Source of the DNA: Thermomicrobiaceae bacterium
GTDB taxonomy: Bacteria; Chloroflexota; Chloroflexia; Thermomicrobiales; Thermomicrobiaceae
Reading direction: 5' to 3'
NCBI GenBank assembly: GCA_014874455.1
Contig: JADBJL010000076.1
Coordinates: 1-64,000, forward strand
Length of the DNA stretch: 64,000 bases
In this document: positions 1,938 to 37,441 of the stretch, in pieces
Numbering within the stretch: the first letter of the stretch is position 1
Layout: every line of letters begins with the position of its first letter
Made by a program: the position numbers and the translations under genes
Notes under the pieces: model-generated
Databases searched by the model: none
What the model was told of the DNA's origin: nothing
What the model saw: only the letters and a program-made list of their open reading frames with translations

Positions 1938-3644
1938 GTGAGTCGGTGGGCGTGCGTGCTGGCGGTGCTGGTGGCACTGCTGGCGCTGGTTCCGAGCCAG
2001 GCGCTCGCCGCGCCGCCAGTCCCCCACCCGGCCGTGGCCGCCACGCACTGGATCGTGATGGACGCCGACACCGGCACGGTTCTCGACGGCGTTCGCCAGC
2101 ACGACCGCACAGCGATGGCCAGCCTGACCAAGATCATGACCGCGCTCGTCGCCCTCGAGCGCGGCGATCTCGACCAGACGGTGCGCATCGTCCAGTCCGA
2201 TCTGATCGGCGAGGCGACTGCCGAGCTGGAGAAGGACCAGCAGGTGACACTGCGCACGCTGCTCTACGGCCTGCTGCTCCGCAGCGGCAACGACGCGGCG
2301 ATGGCGATCGCCCGGGCGGTCGGCGGCAGTCCCGAGAGCGATGACCCGCTGGCGCGTGCCCGCTTCGTCGGCTGGATGAACGACAAGGCGCGCGAGCTGG
2401 AGCTGGCCGATACCCACTTCGTGAACCCGCACGGGCTCGATGCGCCCGGCCACTACACGACGGTCTACGACCTCGCGGTGTTGACGCGGGCGGCGCTGGC
2501 CAATCCCACCTTCGTGGCCATCTTCAGCGCCGATCGCTACGAGGCCGAGGGCTTCACCTACGAGCACGGCAACCAGCTCCCGAAGCGCTACCCGGGGGTC
2601 ATCGGCGGCAAGACCGGCTGGACGGACGACGCCGGGCTCTGCCTGATCGAGGTAGCCGAGCGCGCCGGCCACCGGCTGATCGTGGTGCTGGTCGGCTCGA
2701 CCTTCGAGCACTGGTACGACGACGCGGCCAGGCTGCTCGACTACGGTTGGGCCTTGCTGGATCCCCCGGTGAGCGACGAGGCGGCGGGCCGGGTGTTCGC
2801 CTGGTGGCGGGAGCGGGTCGATGGGCCAGTGCAGGCGGGACTGGTCCAGCGTACCTGGCTCTGGGGCGAGCCGCTGGGGCCGGTCGCGCACGAGCCCTAC
2901 GCCGGCACTCGGGGCGGCTGGCGCCGGGTGCAGTACTTCGAGAAGGGGCGCATGGAGATCACCGATCCGCTGGCGGCCGTGGACGCCCGGTGGTACGTGA
3001 CCGGCGGCCGGCTGGCCTGGGAGCTGATCACCGGGCGGCGACAGGTGGGCGAGCGGGAGTTCTCGACCCTGAGGCCGGCCGATCTGCCCGTGGCGGGTGA
3101 CCCCGATTCTCCCGGCCCAACCTACGCCGAGCTGCGGCCGTTGCTCTCCGCGCCACCGCTTCCGGCCGGGACACGGGTAGCGCTGCGGCTGCGGCCGGAC
3201 GGCCTGGTGCGCGTCGATCCGGAGCTGGAGCGCTACGAGGTGACCGCTGGCGCCCCGTTCCCGGAGACCGGACATGGGGTGGCTTCGGTCTTCGCCGCCT
3301 TCCTGGAGACCCGCGGGCCGGTGCTGGTGAACGGGTCGCTGCGGGAGGAGCCGCTCTTCAACCCGGTGCTCGCGCTCGTCGGCCTGCCGATCACCGAGGC
3401 GTACTGGGTCAGAGTGCCGGTGGGCGGGCAGGAGCGTGATGTCCTGCTCCAGTGCTTCGAGCGACGCTGCCTGACCTATACGCCGGACAACCCGCCCGGC
3501 TGGCAAGTGGAGATGGGCAACATCGGCCGGCACTACCAGCAGTGGCTCGCGAGCCAGGCTACGTCCGGGTCGATCTGGGCGATGGCTGCTCCTTCTCCGG
3601 GGTGCCTGAGGTCGAGGATGCTCGATGCAGACAGCCCTCGATGA
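1938..3644 (+). CDS. Secreted D-alanyl-D-alanine carboxypeptidase (S11/PBP5 type) with C-terminal QYFE(K/R) modules
   Basis: This 568-residue enzyme trims D-Ala from peptidoglycan stem peptides outside the membrane. The GTG at 1938 is preferred to an upstream ATG. It follows an AGGAG box and directly opens a signal peptide (SRWACVLAVLV to ALAAP). The three penicillin-binding motifs are in order: SLTK at 62-65, SGN at 116-118 and KTG at 225-227. The last ~280 residues are not the usual PBP5 domain. They carry two copies of a motif like QYFEKGRMEI (about 332) and LQCFERRCLTYTP (about 504), resembling a module common on exported Chloroflexi proteins. The 3' end overlaps the MFS gene by 20 nt. 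Confidence 0.88.
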   Translation: MSRWACVLAVLVALLALVPSQALAAPPVPHPAVAATHWIVMDADTGTVLDGVRQHDRTAMASLTKIMTALVALERGDLDQTVRIVQSDLIGEATAELEKDQQVTLRTLLYGLLLRSGNDAAMAIARAVGGSPESDDPLARARFVGWMNDKARELELADTHFVNPHGLDAPGHYTTVYDLAVLTRAALANPTFVAIFSADRYEAEGFTYEHGNQLPKRYPGVIGGKTGWTDDAGLCLIEVAERAGHRLIVVLVGSTFEHWYDDAARLLDYGWALLDPPVSDEAAGRVFAWWRERVDGPVQAGLVQRTWLWGEPLGPVAHEPYAGTRGGWRRVQYFEKGRMEITDPLAAVDARWYVTGGRLAWELITGRRQVGEREFSTLRPADLPVAGDPDSPGPTYAELRPLLSAPPLPAGTRVALRLRPDGLVRVDPELERYEVTAGAPFPETGHGVASVFAAFLETRGPVLVNGSLREEPLFNPVLALVGLPITEAYWVRVPVGGQERDVLLQCFERRCLTYTPDNPPGWQVEMGNIGRHYQQWLASQATSGSIWAMAAPSPGCLRSRMLDADSPR

Positions 3645-4920
3645 GCTCCGAGAGCACCTGCGACGCGTCCGCGCGTTCAGCCGCAACGCGCGGCTGCTCC
3701 TGCTGGCGCTCGGGCTGCTCGGCGTCGGCTACGGCGCCTTCTCGACCCTGTTCACGCTCTACATCGTCGAGATCGGGTACGCCGAGGACTTTCTCGGGCT
3801 GCTGATCGGCGTGGGCACAGTAGGGGGAGCGGTCGCGGCGTTGCCGGCCGGGCTGCTCTGCGACCGGCTCGGCGTGCGGCGCGGGCTGCTGCTGGGCACG
3901 CTGATCACGGCGCTCGGCATCCTCATCGAGTGCACGATCACGATCGACTGGCTGCTCCTGGCCGGCGGGCTGATCGCCGCGACCGGCGTCACCCTGCTCT
4001 ACGTGGCTCAGGCGCCCTTCCTGGCTGCCAATAGCACGGAGGAGGAGCGAACGCACCTCTTCAGCGTAGCCGCGGCGCTGCTCGTCGCGGTCAGCATCGT
4101 CGGTAGCCTCTATGCCGGCGGCTTTCCGAAGCTGCTCCAGGCCCTGTGGCCCGGCATGGCGCTGGCTACCGCCTACCGGCTGACACTCCTGGGCGCCGGG
4201 GTCGTCTCGGCCGGCTGCCTGGCCCCACTGCTGCGGCTGCGCGACCCGGCGGACGCACCGCCGCCGCTGGGGAGCCAGGTCACGCTCGCGGTCTGCCTGG
4301 GCAGCGGCGCGGTGCGACGGCTGGTTGCCACCGGGCTGGTACTGGCGCTGGGGGGCGGGCTGGTCGTCCCGTTCGTCAACGTGTACTTCATGCGGGAGTT
4401 CGGGGCGGGCTCCGGCACGGTAGGGCTGATCCGCTCGCTCGGGGTCGTGGTGCAGGTGCTGGGCTCGCTGGGGGCACCCTGGCTCGGGCTGCGGCTAGGG
4501 CTGGTCGGCGGGGTGGCGGCAGCCCGCCTGGTCTCGGCGCCGTTCCTCTTGCTGATGGGATTCCTGCCCTTCCTGCCGGCGGCCGCGGCCGCCTTCGCGC
4601 TGCGCACCTTCTTCGTCTACCTCTCGGATCCGCTGCACACGGACTTCTCGATGCGGATCATCCCGCCAGAGGTCAGGGCCACGGCGAACAGCCTGACGTT
4701 CCTGGGCTGGAACGCCACGCTGGCGCTGGGCGGCTGGGCCGGAGGCCAGCTCATCGTCCGCGCCGGCTACGAGCCGCTGTTCCTGCTCGGGAGCTCGATC
4801 ACAGTAGTAGCCGCCGCGGTCTACTGGTTTACCTTCCGCCGCTTCCTGCCGGAGCTGCCGCGAGTGAGGGTTCGCCTGGCGCGCGCCGGGTCCGGGCTGG
4901 AGGACGACGGGCACTCCTGA
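3625..4920 (+). CDS. MFS-family transporter
   Basis: A 431-residue integral membrane protein with about 12 predicted hydrophobic segments and the major-facilitator signature between segments 2 and 3 (LLCDRLGVRRG, residues ~76-86). The start overlaps the end of the carboxypeptidase gene, so the two are probably translated together. The substrate cannot be read from the sequence. Its closest look is to sugar- or drug-efflux MFS proteins. The 86-bp convergent gap downstream contains a small GC hairpin (4957-4971), perhaps a terminator. Confidence 0.85.
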   Translation: MQTALDELREHLRRVRAFSRNARLLLLALGLLGVGYGAFSTLFTLYIVEIGYAEDFLGLLIGVGTVGGAVAALPAGLLCDRLGVRRGLLLGTLITALGILIECTITIDWLLLAGGLIAATGVTLLYVAQAPFLAANSTEEERTHLFSVAAALLVAVSIVGSLYAGGFPKLLQALWPGMALATAYRLTLLGAGVVSAGCLAPLLRLRDPADAPPPLGSQVTLAVCLGSGAVRRLVATGLVLALGGGLVVPFVNVYFMREFGAGSGTVGLIRSLGVVVQVLGSLGAPWLGLRLGLVGGVAAARLVSAPFLLLMGFLPFLPAAAAAFALRTFFVYLSDPLHTDFSMRIIPPEVRATANSLTFLGWNATLALGGWAGGQLIVRAGYEPLFLLGSSITVVAAAVYWFTFRRFLPELPRVRVRLARAGSGLEDDGHS

Positions 4921-5006
4921 GCCGCACCTGAACCCAGGAACCATCCGGTACCCGCTGAGCTCCGCGGGCTCCGCGACGGGCTACGCGCCGGTTATGCGGC
5001 CTTCGC

Positions 5007-5783
5007 CTACCCGCGCAGCAGCCAGAGGCGCTCGGCTGGCCGGCCGGAGCCGGCCTCCAGCGCCGCTCGGTAGATAGCCTCGGCCGGGTCGCCGAGGTGG
5101 CGGAAGATCACGGCGATCTGCGAGGCGTAGCACCGGACCGCGACGATCCGGCGCTGGAGCAGGTCGTCGCTCAGCGGCTGCAGCCAGGGCTCGGCCGCCG
5201 CGTGCTCGCTCGCCAGTCGGGCCAGCTCGCGGCTCCCGCCCTCGAGCGCACTGTAGGGGAAGTCTTCGTAGGCCCAGACCGTCCAGCCTTCGCGACGCAG
5301 CTCGTGGCCGAGCGCGCGCACGAGCTGGTGATCCACGTGGTTGCCGGCGCCGAGCGGCACCGCGAACCAGGCCGGCGTGACGCCGGCCCCAGCGAGCGCC
5401 TCGCGGAGTGCCGCTCGCAGGCGGGGAAGCACGTCGGCGTCGTCGGGGTGCAGGCTGCCGAAGAGCTGCTCGTCGGAGAGGTAGCGGGCATCGCGGTAGA
5501 TTGCGTCCGGGAGGCCGAGCCAGAGCGGCTCGGCGCCCAGGGCATCGGCCGCGGCTCGCTCCTCGGCCCGCCGGATCGCCAGCGCTTCCTCGTCGCTCAG
5601 GCCGCGCCAGCGGTGCTGGAAGGCGGCGAAGGGGCTGAGCGGGCCGTCTGGCTCACCGCCGAAGCAGGTCACGATCACCGGGCGCAGGCCCTGCTCGGCC
5701 AGCGCCGCCACGGTGCCGCCGCAGGAGAGCGCGACGTCGTCGTAGTGGGGCGCGAGGAAGACCGGGCGGGCCGATTCAGCCAT
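5007..5783 (-). CDS. PIG-L (LmbE-like) N-deacetylase
   Basis: 258 residues. The PHYDD motif at residues 12-16 corresponds to the PHPDD zinc/catalytic motif of the PIG-L deacetylases, which remove acetyl groups from GlcNAc-type sugars (MshB, BshB and GPI-anchor enzymes). HVDHQLV at about residue 149 is the second zinc-ligand motif. Its ATG overlaps the selB stop by 8 nt (ATGGCTGA), so it is coupled to selB. The substrate is unknown. An inositol-glycan or bacillithiol/mycothiol-like substrate is one option, given the inositol phosphate synthase elsewhere in the window. Confidence 0.88.
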   Translation of the reverse strand: MAESARPVFLAPHYDDVALSCGGTVAALAEQGLRPVIVTCFGGEPDGPLSPFAAFQHRWRGLSDEEALAIRRAEERAAADALGAEPLWLGLPDAIYRDARYLSDEQLFGSLHPDDADVLPRLRAALREALAGAGVTPAWFAVPLGAGNHVDHQLVRALGHELRREGWTVWAYEDFPYSALEGGSRELARLASEHAAAEPWLQPLSDDLLQRRIVAVRCYASQIAVIFRHLGDPAEAIYRAALEAGSGRPAERLWLLRG

Positions 5784-7677
5784 GGGCGTAGCGCACCCGG
5801 GTATCGCCGACCCGGCGGGTGACCCGCCGCTGGTCCAGGTACTCGAGCACCGCCTGCGCGTACTTGCGGCTGGTGCCGAAGTGGTCGCGGAACTGCGCCA
5901 GCGTCAGGCTGCCCTGCCGGTCGATCAGCTCCAGCACTGCGCGCTGGATCTCCTCGAAAGTCTCGCGGGCGAAGACGATGCCCTCGTCTACCCGCACGAT
6001 CGCGCCGGTGTCGACCAGCGCTGCCACGAGCTCCGGCTCCAGCTCGAACTCGGCCGGCGAGGGCGGGCTGTACGGCTGCGACCGCAGCGCGCCGAGATAG
6101 CGGTCGATGCGGGCCTGCTGCTCGGGCGTGAAGCGGATCTGATGGTGCGGTAGCCGGACCGTGTCCGCCTCCTCGACGATCGCGCCCTGGCGCGCCAGCG
6201 CGGCCACCACCTCGTCGAAGGCGCGGGGGGTGAGCGCCAGGCGGCTGCGGGCTTCCTCGCGCGGCATGCCCCGGCGCAGCGGGTAGCGCTCGTGGTAGGC
6301 GCTCAGCAGCCTGGCCAGCCCGGCGCCGAGGGCCCGGAGGGCATCGGTGCGGATGAGCAGCGTGGTCGGGGCGAGCGCGCGCTCGGTGCTGAGAGGCGTG
6401 ATCTCCTGGCGCCCGATCAGCTCCTCGACCGTCGCCCGGCCTTCGGCCTCGGGCAGGCCGGCCTGCTGGATCACCTCGCGCAGTTCCCGTGGCTGGCGAT
6501 CGAGCACCTGCAGGACGAGTTCTTGCGGCGTGCCGCTGGCGAGGACTTCGAGTGCCCGGATGACCTCCGGGCGGAAGCGGCGGTGCCGGCGCGGGTGGGG
6601 GTCGACGACCACGCCGCCGCCGATCGTCGAGCCCGGCGACGGCCGGCGGATGATGAAGCGGTCGCCCCGCACCGCGACCACCGGCTCGGAGAAGCGGAAC
6701 TGCACCCAACCCTCGCCGCCCGGGTCGATCCGCTCGGCGTCGAGCAGGGTCACCCGGGCGAGCGTCTCGGCCGCGCCGATGAAGAAGTCCACCTGGTCAT
6801 TCTGCTCCAGCGGCGCAGAGGCAGCAGGGATCAACCGCAGGCGCGCGTCGAGCAGCGTCGTCGGCCGGAGCCAGCCGGGCGTGGTCAGCACGTGACCCCG
6901 CGCGATCTCCTCGACTGCGATGCCGCTCAAGTTCACCGCCGTGCGGGAGCCTGGCTGCGCGCGCTCGACCTTGACGCGGTGGCTCTGCAAGCCGCGCACG
7001 CGCCCGCGCTTGCCAGTCGGCAGCAGCTCGACCTCCTGGCCAATCTCCAGCGGCCCGCCCCGCAACGTGCCGGTCACGACCGTACCGAAGCCAGGCATGG
7101 TGAAGACCCGGTCGACGGCCAGGCGCGGGCGGCCGGTTTCCAGGTGCGGCGGCACCCGCTCCAACAGCCGGTCGAGCGCGGTGACCAGCTCCGGCAGGCC
7201 TTCACCGGTCACCGCCGAGACCGGGACGATCTCGGCCCCTTCGAGCACGGAGCCGCGGAGCCGCTCCAGCACCTCCACCGTGACCAGCTCGCGCCACTCC
7301 TCGTCTACCAGGTCGACTTTGGTCAGCGCCACCAGCCCATGGCGGATCTGGAGCAGGTCGATGATCGCCAGATGCTCGGCGGTCTGCGGCATCGGCCCCT
7401 CGTCGGCGGCGACGACCAGCAGCGCCGCGTCGAAGCCGCCGACGCCGGCCAGCATGTTCTTGATGAACCGCTCGTGCCCCGGCACGTCGATGATGCTCAC
7501 CCGCCGCCCGCTGGGCAGCGAGAGCCAGGCGAAGCCGAGATCGATCGTCATCTCCCGCTCTTTCTCCTCGCGGAGCCGGTCGGGATCGATGCCGGTGAGT
7601 GCTTTGACCAGCGTCGATTTGCCGTGGTCGACGTGGCCGGCGGTGCCGATGACGTAGGTCTGTGGTTGCGTCGTCAT
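5776..7677 (-). CDS. selB: Selenocysteine-specific elongation factor SelB
   Basis: SelB carries Sec-tRNA(Sec) to the ribosome at UGA codons marked by a SECIS hairpin. The 633-residue protein begins with an EF-Tu-like GTPase domain: GHVDHGKS (14-21), EKEREMTIDLGFAW as in SelB, the DVPGH switch and TKVD. Two beta-barrel domains follow, then a long C-terminal part (from ~380) made of winged-helix repeats that bind the SECIS RNA. The SelB-type switch sequence and the winged-helix tail separate it from EF-Tu and IF2. It shows that the organism is likely to decode UGA as Sec, and the window holds two candidate targets at 35717-36109 and 36962-37441. No selA, selD or tRNA-Sec gene is seen in the window. 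Confidence 0.95.
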   Translation of the reverse strand: MTTQPQTYVIGTAGHVDHGKSTLVKALTGIDPDRLREEKEREMTIDLGFAWLSLPSGRRVSIIDVPGHERFIKNMLAGVGGFDAALLVVAADEGPMPQTAEHLAIIDLLQIRHGLVALTKVDLVDEEWRELVTVEVLERLRGSVLEGAEIVPVSAVTGEGLPELVTALDRLLERVPPHLETGRPRLAVDRVFTMPGFGTVVTGTLRGGPLEIGQEVELLPTGKRGRVRGLQSHRVKVERAQPGSRTAVNLSGIAVEEIARGHVLTTPGWLRPTTLLDARLRLIPAASAPLEQNDQVDFFIGAAETLARVTLLDAERIDPGGEGWVQFRFSEPVVAVRGDRFIIRRPSPGSTIGGGVVVDPHPRRHRRFRPEVIRALEVLASGTPQELVLQVLDRQPRELREVIQQAGLPEAEGRATVEELIGRQEITPLSTERALAPTTLLIRTDALRALGAGLARLLSAYHERYPLRRGMPREEARSRLALTPRAFDEVVAALARQGAIVEEADTVRLPHHQIRFTPEQQARIDRYLGALRSQPYSPPSPAEFELEPELVAALVDTGAIVRVDEGIVFARETFEEIQRAVLELIDRQGSLTLAQFRDHFGTSRKYAQAVLEYLDQRRVTRRVGDTRVRYAHG

Positions 7678-35631: not shown

Positions 35632-35716
35632 GAGAGCGCTCCGGCTACGGAGAGCTTGCGCGTACGGGCGTAGCGCCACCGGAGGCTGTCGCCGCGTAGC
35701 TGACGAGGAGTGCTCG

Positions 35717-36109
35717 ATGCGTCACCACTTGGCTGGCCGACACACGCTCTGGTTTGCGACGCTCGGGCTGGCCGCCGTGCTGCTCGCTGTCCTCTTGGTG
35801 GCGAGCAGCGTGCGGAGCGGACTCATCGGGCGCCATGCGAGCGGCTCAGCCAGCGTCACGGCGACTCCGCCGGCCGCCGCGACCAGCAGCCGGACGCTGG
35901 TGCTCGAGGGGATGGGGTTCACCTGATCGGTGTGCGCGGCTGCGGTCGCGGCCCAAATCCGCACGTTGCCAGGGGTGACCGGTTCCGAAGCCGACATCAA
36001 CCGTGACCGGCTCGTCGTGCGCTACAACCCTCAAGCGGTCAGTCGCGACCAGCTCCTGGACGCGATCACCGGGTTAGGCTACCGGCCGCGCGAGATTCGA
36101 GAACCTTGA
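35717..36109 (+). CDS. Selenoprotein: membrane-anchored HMA (heavy-metal-associated) domain protein, UxxC
   Basis: 130 residues if the TGA at 35924-35926 is read as selenocysteine (U70). The ATG follows GAGGAG at 6 nt. Residues ~10-31 form a membrane anchor or uncleaved signal, then a Ser/Thr/Ala linker. An HMA fold covers ~60-125: LVLEGMGFT-U-SVC, then TLPGV, the NRDRLVVRYNP strand and LDAITGLGYRPR. In ordinary HMA domains this motif is GMxCxxC, so U replaces the first metal-binding Cys, leaving C73 as partner. The homology runs unbroken across the UGA to a normal TGA stop. A SECIS-like hairpin follows the UGA. The domain should face outward and may bind or reduce a thiophilic metal; this is inference. 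The 3' end overlaps the convergent arginase gene by 31 bp. A nonsense-mutated pseudogene is the alternative. Confidence 0.85.
35924..35953 (+). promoter_or_regulatory. Sec UGA codon and bacterial SECIS hairpin (HMA selenoprotein)
   Basis: After the UGA at 35924-35926, GGCUGC (35938-35943) pairs with GCGGCC (35948-35953). This is six base pairs including one U-G, closing a GGUC loop (35944-35947). The loop G is the 18th base after UGA. Bacterial SECIS elements sit in the coding region just behind the UGA with a G early in the loop, and the E. coli fdhF loop also contains GGUC. Pairing was checked by eye only, not by folding software. Confidence 0.75.
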
Positions 36110-36961: not shown

Positions 36962-37441
36962 TCAGGCCCGTCCTGCCAGCTCGCGCAGTCGCTTGAGCGC
37001 GGCGGTGACGTCCGGCAGCTCGCGTGGATGCGGGACGCGATCGCGGTACGCGACGGTGCCATCGCGGTCGACAATGATGATGGCGCGGTCGGGGACGTCG
37101 CGGTAGCCGGCCAGCTCGTCGAGCTTGACGTCGTAGGCGGCGATGACCTCCCGGCTCCAATCGCTCAGCAGTGGGTAGGTAAACCCGCGCTCCCTGGCCC
37201 AAGCCGCCAGGGCGAAGTGGCTGTCAGCGCTGATGCCGAAAGCCTCGGCGCCGAGTTCGCGGATCTCGTCCAGCCTGGCACCCAACTGGGCCAGCTCGTC
37301 TCCTCAGCCGCTGGTAAAGGCGAAGTGCACGAAGGCGAGTACGGCGATCCGCTGCTTGAGCACCTCGCTCAGCGTGACCCGCTCACCCGTGCTGCTCGGC
37401 AGGGTGAAATCAGGCGCTGGCTGTCCAACCCCGGCCGGCAT
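36962..37441 (-). CDS. Selenoprotein: peroxiredoxin with selenocysteine as peroxidatic residue (TxxU)
   Basis: 159 residues if the TGA at 37304-37306 is read as selenocysteine (U46). AGGAGG lies 5 nt before the ATG at 37441. The protein starts GQPAPDFTLPSSTGERVTL, as in AhpC/TSA and BCP-AhpE peroxiredoxins. VLAFVHFAFTSG-U-GDEL follows; the family has FTP.C at this point, so Thr43 and U46 form the catalytic TxxC-type motif. AEAFGISADSHFALAAWA and FTYPLLSDW continue the thioredoxin fold, and the natural stop is another TGA. It should reduce hydroperoxides in the cytoplasm. Without recoding only a fragment lacking the active site would be made. A SECIS-like hairpin follows the UGA. Confidence 0.92.
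37272..37306 (-). promoter_or_regulatory. Sec UGA codon and bacterial SECIS hairpin (peroxiredoxin)
   Basis: The UGA is at 37306-37304 on the minus strand. Downstream, bases 37296-37295 pair with 37273-37272, 37294-37290 (CUGGC) with 37279-37275 (GCCAG), and 37289-37288 with 37282-37281. This gives nine base pairs with single-base bulges at 37274 and 37280 and an AGUUG loop. The loop G (37286) is the 18th base after the UGA, the same distance as in the HMA gene. Checked by eye only. Confidence 0.65.

Follow-up and report, generated by a model that had tools for sequence, protein, structure and literature searches.

Most known selenoproteins are redox enzymes, and selenocysteine (Sec) in metal-trafficking sites is known in few of them (PMC13188914). 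The 119 prokaryotic selenoprotein families inventoried in 2026 include a heavy-metal-associated (HMA) protein with a UxxU motif (NF041115), a cation-transporting ATPase with a UxxC motif, a MerT-like protein and the protein TsoB (PMC13188914), and a Sec-containing ‘MerP’ is listed in the GOS survey from two marine sequences, its motif, gene context and organism not being given (PMC2398784). Here we describe a locus in the window (the whole stretch of 64,000 nucleotides that was analysed, from a heat-loving and probably Thermomicrobia-like bacterium of the Chloroflexota) at which a UGA codon stands in the metal motif of a small HMA protein. We consider it probable that this protein is a selenoprotein whose Sec is inserted by SelB under the direction of a hairpin, and that it binds soft metals outside the cytoplasm together with a P1B ATPase, a CcdA-type relay keeping its selenolate in reduced form. 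The features on which this reading draws are listed below, with coordinates in the window.

35706-35710, plus strand: ribosome-binding site AGGAG, 6 nt 5′ of the ATG (sequence)
35717-36109, plus strand: HMA-UxxC selenoprotein gene, 130 amino acids and a TGA stop (translation, Pfam HMA, 14 homologous UGA genes)
35744-35827, plus strand: codons of the N-terminal membrane helix, residues 10-37 (hydropathy 2.58 over 19 residues; AlphaFold helix 10-37)
35891-36100, plus strand: HMA domain, residues 59-128 (AlphaFold pLDDT >90; Foldseek matches to ATP7B, MerP and CopZ)
35924-35926, plus strand: UGA read as the Sec codon, residue 70, position 1 of UxxC (UGA in 15 of 15 homologous genes)
35933-35935, plus strand: second Cys of UxxC, residue 73 (invariant in alignments)
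35938-35953, plus strand: SECIS-like hairpin GGCTGC-GGTC-GCGGCC, within the coding sequence (covariation across 15 genes, synonymous invariance, geometry of E. coli fdhF)
5776-7677, minus strand: selB, selenocysteine elongation factor (TIGR00475, 352.3 bits with its pieces taken together, over the cut-off)

Translation of the open reading frame gives a single in-frame UGA, at codon 70, and a terminal TGA. Within the motif GMGFT-U-SVC this UGA replaces the first Cys of the HMA motif, the HMA fold continuing intact on its 3′ side, and in the alignment U70 stands opposite the leading Cys of the HMA CxxC, where the CopA paralogues carry Cys. A preliminary description of this DNA had placed an in-frame UGA at that Cys ahead of a terminal TGA, with a ribosome site and a membrane anchor before the HMA domain and a SelB gene in the same window; we reproduced the coordinates and the frame, and found the AGGAG element, the hydropathic N-terminus and selB all present. 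The same description had held that a lack of tRNA-Sec, SelA and SelD would speak against it, and the genome holds all three: a tRNA-Sec (73.5 bits, anticodon UCA), SelA (534.7 bits) and SelD (373.7 bits), the SelD gene having an in-frame TGA of its own. Genome-wide reassignment of UGA was rejected, since the tRNA-Sec has the anticodon UCA and the gene’s own terminator is UGA; an account consulted for alternative Cys coding in Chloroflexi (PMC5424206) has passages that do not concern UGA. By the evidence of sequence comparison, the gene at 35717-36109 is probably that of a genuine selenoprotein.

When the UGA is read through, Pfam HMA (PF00403) matches residues 68-122 with 29.7 bits, above its gathering cut-off of 24.8. 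The AlphaFold model has an N-terminal helix at residues 10-37 followed by a beta-alpha-beta-beta-alpha-beta HMA fold at residues 59-128 (pLDDT >90) and sets residue 70 in the metal loop ahead of helix 1; the closest solved structures found by Foldseek are domains of ATP7B, MerP and CopZ. As modelled, the small protein starts with a short membrane anchor, from which a linker leads to an HMA (ferredoxin-like) domain; there CxxC has become UxxC, a putative metal-binding site. On hydropathy and charge only, the most likely topology has the HMA domain on the outer side. An N-terminal anchor is predicted in 12 of the 14 HMA-UxxC proteins tested, the soluble forms being one of the two from genome G114 (G114b) and that of G244; an anchored and a soluble form thus occur together in the G114 genome. 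Soluble, anchorless HMA-UxxC selenoproteins with the motifs LGMHUTGC and LGMRUNGC lie at loci L139 (around 1600, minus strand) and L182 (5581-5847), each with a perfect 6-bp hairpin and a GGUC loop.

The UGA is conserved among relatives. HMA-UxxC genes number 15 in 14 genomes, spanning eight genera and six families of the phylum; the codon for residue 70 is UGA in every one of them and never TAA or TAG, Cys73 is invariant, and UxxC is found in all 15. Eight are same-family orthologues from two genera (g1, genomes G000-G003; g4, genomes G006, G010, G015 and G017), all with UGA at position 70 and a Cys three residues later; their true terminators vary among TGA, TAG and TAA, and codon 70 is TGA throughout. 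Profile searches, which covered 158 genomes of the class and 400 of the phylum, added seven UGA/UxxC genes beyond the family (two in G114 and one each in G154, G360, G446, G244 and G184). In the phylum search all matches of at least 82 bits carried the UGA, and the next, at 71.8 bits, lay in a long ATPase-type open reading frame; a pattern search of genome contigs matched Bacterium HR26 alone. Four candidates flagged as having one TGA (L024, L029, L031 and L037) were set aside as ordinary Cys-containing HMA or CopA genes in which the TGA precedes the real start. The dN/dS ratios indicate purifying selection both before and behind the UGA. They are about 0.1-0.6, at most about 0.64 on its 3′ side, and below 1 in every computable pair, several g4 pairs being saturated at synonymous sites. 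Homologues lacking conservation downstream had been proposed as a counter-argument, and by this measure the sequence 3′ of the UGA is conserved. The preliminary description had called for an alignment in search of a Cys opposite the UGA: HMA families and CopA paralogues have Cys there, and no Cys-form orthologue turned up in the 158 class and 400 phylum genomes, with only 11 candidates scored per genome.

The hairpin at 35938-35953 begins 12 nt and ends 27 nt 3′ of the UGA, and its GGUC loop (35944-35947) lies 17 nt behind the UGA, just as had been described. In all eight close orthologues the GGUC apical loop occupies nt 21-24, the U of the UGA being nt 1. Where the amino acid is invariant among the eight closest genes, the codon is synonymously invariant at three of three positions in the hairpin (+4, +7 and +8) versus none of 12 outside it (Fisher p = 0.0022). 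Scored over all 15 genes, the six-pair helix is paired in 82.2% of cells, against 69.5 for shuffled sequence; cells with double changes number 10 against 4.0, and covariation scores 0.338 against 0.152. None of 500 shuffles reached any of these values, and the covariation signal is lost once the register of the hairpin is slid. At this same position the apical loop is GGUC in 12 genes, GAUC in one and CGUU in two; two of the 15 (G114a and G184) fit the hairpin poorly in this register. E. coli fdhF, its identity confirmed in 5,369 genomes, has a hairpin of the same geometry with GGUC 1 nt further on. An Rfam scan of the window gave no matches, and the window hairpin, folded alone, does not exceed shuffled sequence in stability and competes with another hairpin. 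The fold proposed earlier as a check for a SECIS element was thus not significant on the single sequence, and support for the hairpin comes from comparison across genes, through covariation and synonymous invariance. SelB and tRNA-Sec would insert Sec at 35924-35926 as directed by this hairpin.

The surroundings of the gene differ among lineages. In the window genus it sits between a purine nucleoside phosphorylase gene and an arginase-family gene, with a conserved Sec peroxiredoxin gene following, and this locus has no CcdA or ATPase gene nearby. The peroxiredoxin gene (36962-37440, minus strand; UGA at 37306-37304) makes a second selenoprotein in the window; its AhpC/TSA-type product, with the motif FTSGUGDE (TxxU), is of a known family type, and the UGA and the hairpin sequence downstream are kept in all four genomes of the window genus. 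At another site the window genome encodes one CcdA homologue, whose score is inflated by the inclusion of a same-genus copy in the model. This homologue, the all-Cys CcdA of G000 (C96; L184, about 3400-5400, minus strand), shares its cluster with genes for an ArsR-type regulator and a small membrane protein resembling MerT/E, and with a seemingly frameshifted redoxin-like gene.

Among the relatives as a whole, a gene for a CcdA/DsbD-type electron conduit adjoins eight HMA-UxxC genes. In G114, G154, G184 and G360 a DsbD_TM gene follows directly 3′ on the same strand, its product matching PF02683 with 48-75 bits and, in the four proteins aligned, keeping both transmembrane Cys (SPC/TPC) invariant. 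In four g4 species the gene before the HMA gene encodes a CcdA-like membrane protein and itself contains an in-frame UGA (GFG-U-TGP); these genes (L084, L085, L086 and L087) read AGFG-U-TGPILAGL and carry a hairpin with a GGUC loop 1 nt further on, as in E. coli fdhF. Their product matches no Pfam or NCBIfam model, gives 91.8% by hhalign against the DsbD_TM set, and is a probable new selenoprotein family. Where the contig extends far enough, in three g4 genomes, a MerR-type regulator precedes the CcdA-like gene. In a third genus, g6 (L103-L107), a CcdA-like UGA gene was seen at the syntenic place with no HMA partner, apparently degraded in some genomes; it was not merged with the others. A P1B ATPase gene lies directly upstream of the HMA-UxxC gene in G360, G244 and G446, a little further upstream in G154, and nearby on the other strand in G114; in three of the four g4 genomes it is a few kb off, accompanied by a CsoR-like regulator. 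No metal-specific cut-off is reached by the MerR or CsoR-like regulators. A thioredoxin gene lies near the HMA-UxxC gene of G154. This context of CcdA and ATPase genes is the strongest clue to a metal function, which we infer from it.

In the mechanism that we favor, the anchored HMA domain would capture a soft ion, Cu(I), Ag(I) or Hg(II), between the selenolate and Cys73. The selenolate would be the first and more exposed metal ligand, binding soft ions more tightly, being ionised at lower pH and oxidising readily, and it is this ready oxidation that makes sense of a CcdA conduit as reductant. Since the relatives’ gene adjoins a CcdA/DsbD-type membrane protein, this conduit probably maintains the selenolate-thiol pair of the HMA domain in reduced form, passing on electrons from cytoplasmic thioredoxin. 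With the P1B ATPase and the MerR-type regulator, the HMA protein may take part in soft-metal efflux or detoxification, which could end in sequestration, in hand-over to or from the ATPase, or in reduction of the metal ion. The narrower picture of a membrane selenium relay, in which a CcdA-type conduit feeds electrons to the anchored extracytoplasmic HMA-UxxC protein beside a P1B ATPase, is one that we hold tentatively, as somewhat short of probable; it embraces a metal-trafficking site that selenolate chemistry either maintains or makes reduce metals.

Other explanations account for part of this evidence. The HMA scaffold might instead serve as a thiol/selenol oxidoreductase that takes electrons from CcdA and delivers them outside the cytoplasm, to oxidised proteins or to metal ions, metal binding being incidental. 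We regard this as rather unlikely, although Sec is mainly found in redox sites (PMC13188914), the commonest partner is a CcdA/DsbD_TM gene that in g4 encodes a selenoprotein itself, a thioredoxin is near at hand in G154, and a Sec peroxiredoxin is a conserved near neighbor in the window genus. The P1B ATPase and the MerR/CsoR-like neighbors point instead to metals. The known partners of CcdA, moreover, have a thioredoxin fold, and the fold here is that of HMA and is not thioredoxin-like. Import in the manner of MerP and MerT, the anchored HMA protein handing Hg(II) to a CcdA-like protein that acts as a metal permease and not as an electron conduit, would fit the likeness to MerP in fold and remote profile, the MerR-family regulator in g4 and, in G000, the ArsR-type regulator and the small membrane protein resembling MerT/E that cluster with the CcdA homologue. 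It is nonetheless improbable, as the partners match DsbD_TM and retain its two SPC/TPC cysteines, all Mer models score below cut-off, and neither merA nor other mer genes were seen when the gene neighborhoods were read by eye.

The simplest objection, that the UGA is a true stop which leaves a 69-residue anchored peptide or marks a decaying pseudogene, agrees with where standard annotation would end the gene. It is already contradicted, and we give it hardly any credence: the UGA recurs in 15 of 15 genes from six families, the frame behind it is intact and under purifying selection, the hairpin is conserved, and the Sec machinery is complete. Standard annotation would in this way truncate HMA-UxxC genes at the UGA. 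Our analysis suggests that metals, copper or mercury for instance, are handled extracellularly by means of selenium, and the conserved HMA-CcdA-ATPase context makes this a testable proposal for copper- or mercury-like ions. The analysis also adds a candidate Sec-containing CcdA-like protein.

Compared with the known systems, neither an anchored HMA-UxxC family nor a single-Sec CcdA is among the 119 families of the inventory (PMC13188914), and NCBIfam models all score HMA-UxxC proteins below cut-off. The novelty put forward in the preliminary description holds for the membrane-anchored UxxC family and was somewhat overstated, HMA-containing selenoproteins being already listed. The nearest of these, the UxxU metal-binding (seleno)protein NF041115 (the Olavius/GOS-type ‘putative mercuric reductase’ of PMC13188914, Table 1), is likewise a small HMA selenoprotein with Sec at the first CxxC position; its 74-residue model has two Sec, whereas the window protein has UxxC, an N-terminal anchor and another gene context, and scores 40.4 bits (homologues, 34-46) versus a cut-off of 95. 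MerP, a stand-alone extracytoplasmic HMA protein, resembles the state proposed for the window protein, which reaches 28.2 bits with the MerP model TIGR02052 against a cut-off of 92.55. The cation-transporting ATPase E1-E2 selenoprotein (TIGR01525; ABB15669.1) shares UxxC in a heavy-metal protein but is a whole P-type ATPase, whereas HMA-UxxC is a stand-alone anchored domain beside an all-Cys ATPase. The MerT/CopZ fusion-like heavy metal transport selenoprotein NF045683 shares an HMA-like domain and a membrane part; it is a 235-residue fusion, with which the window protein scores 18.2 bits against a cut-off of 375. The copper chaperones CopZ and Atx1 have the same fold and a CxxC metal loop but are cytoplasmic and all-Cys, and the window protein and its homologues fall below the CopZ cut-offs. 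Finally, the g4 CcdA-like selenoprotein is comparable to TsoB (NF045694) in having a DsbD-type membrane domain with Sec; TsoB is a rhodanese/DsbD fusion with a 572-residue model and the motif UxxxxU, whereas the g4 protein has about 280 residues and one Sec.
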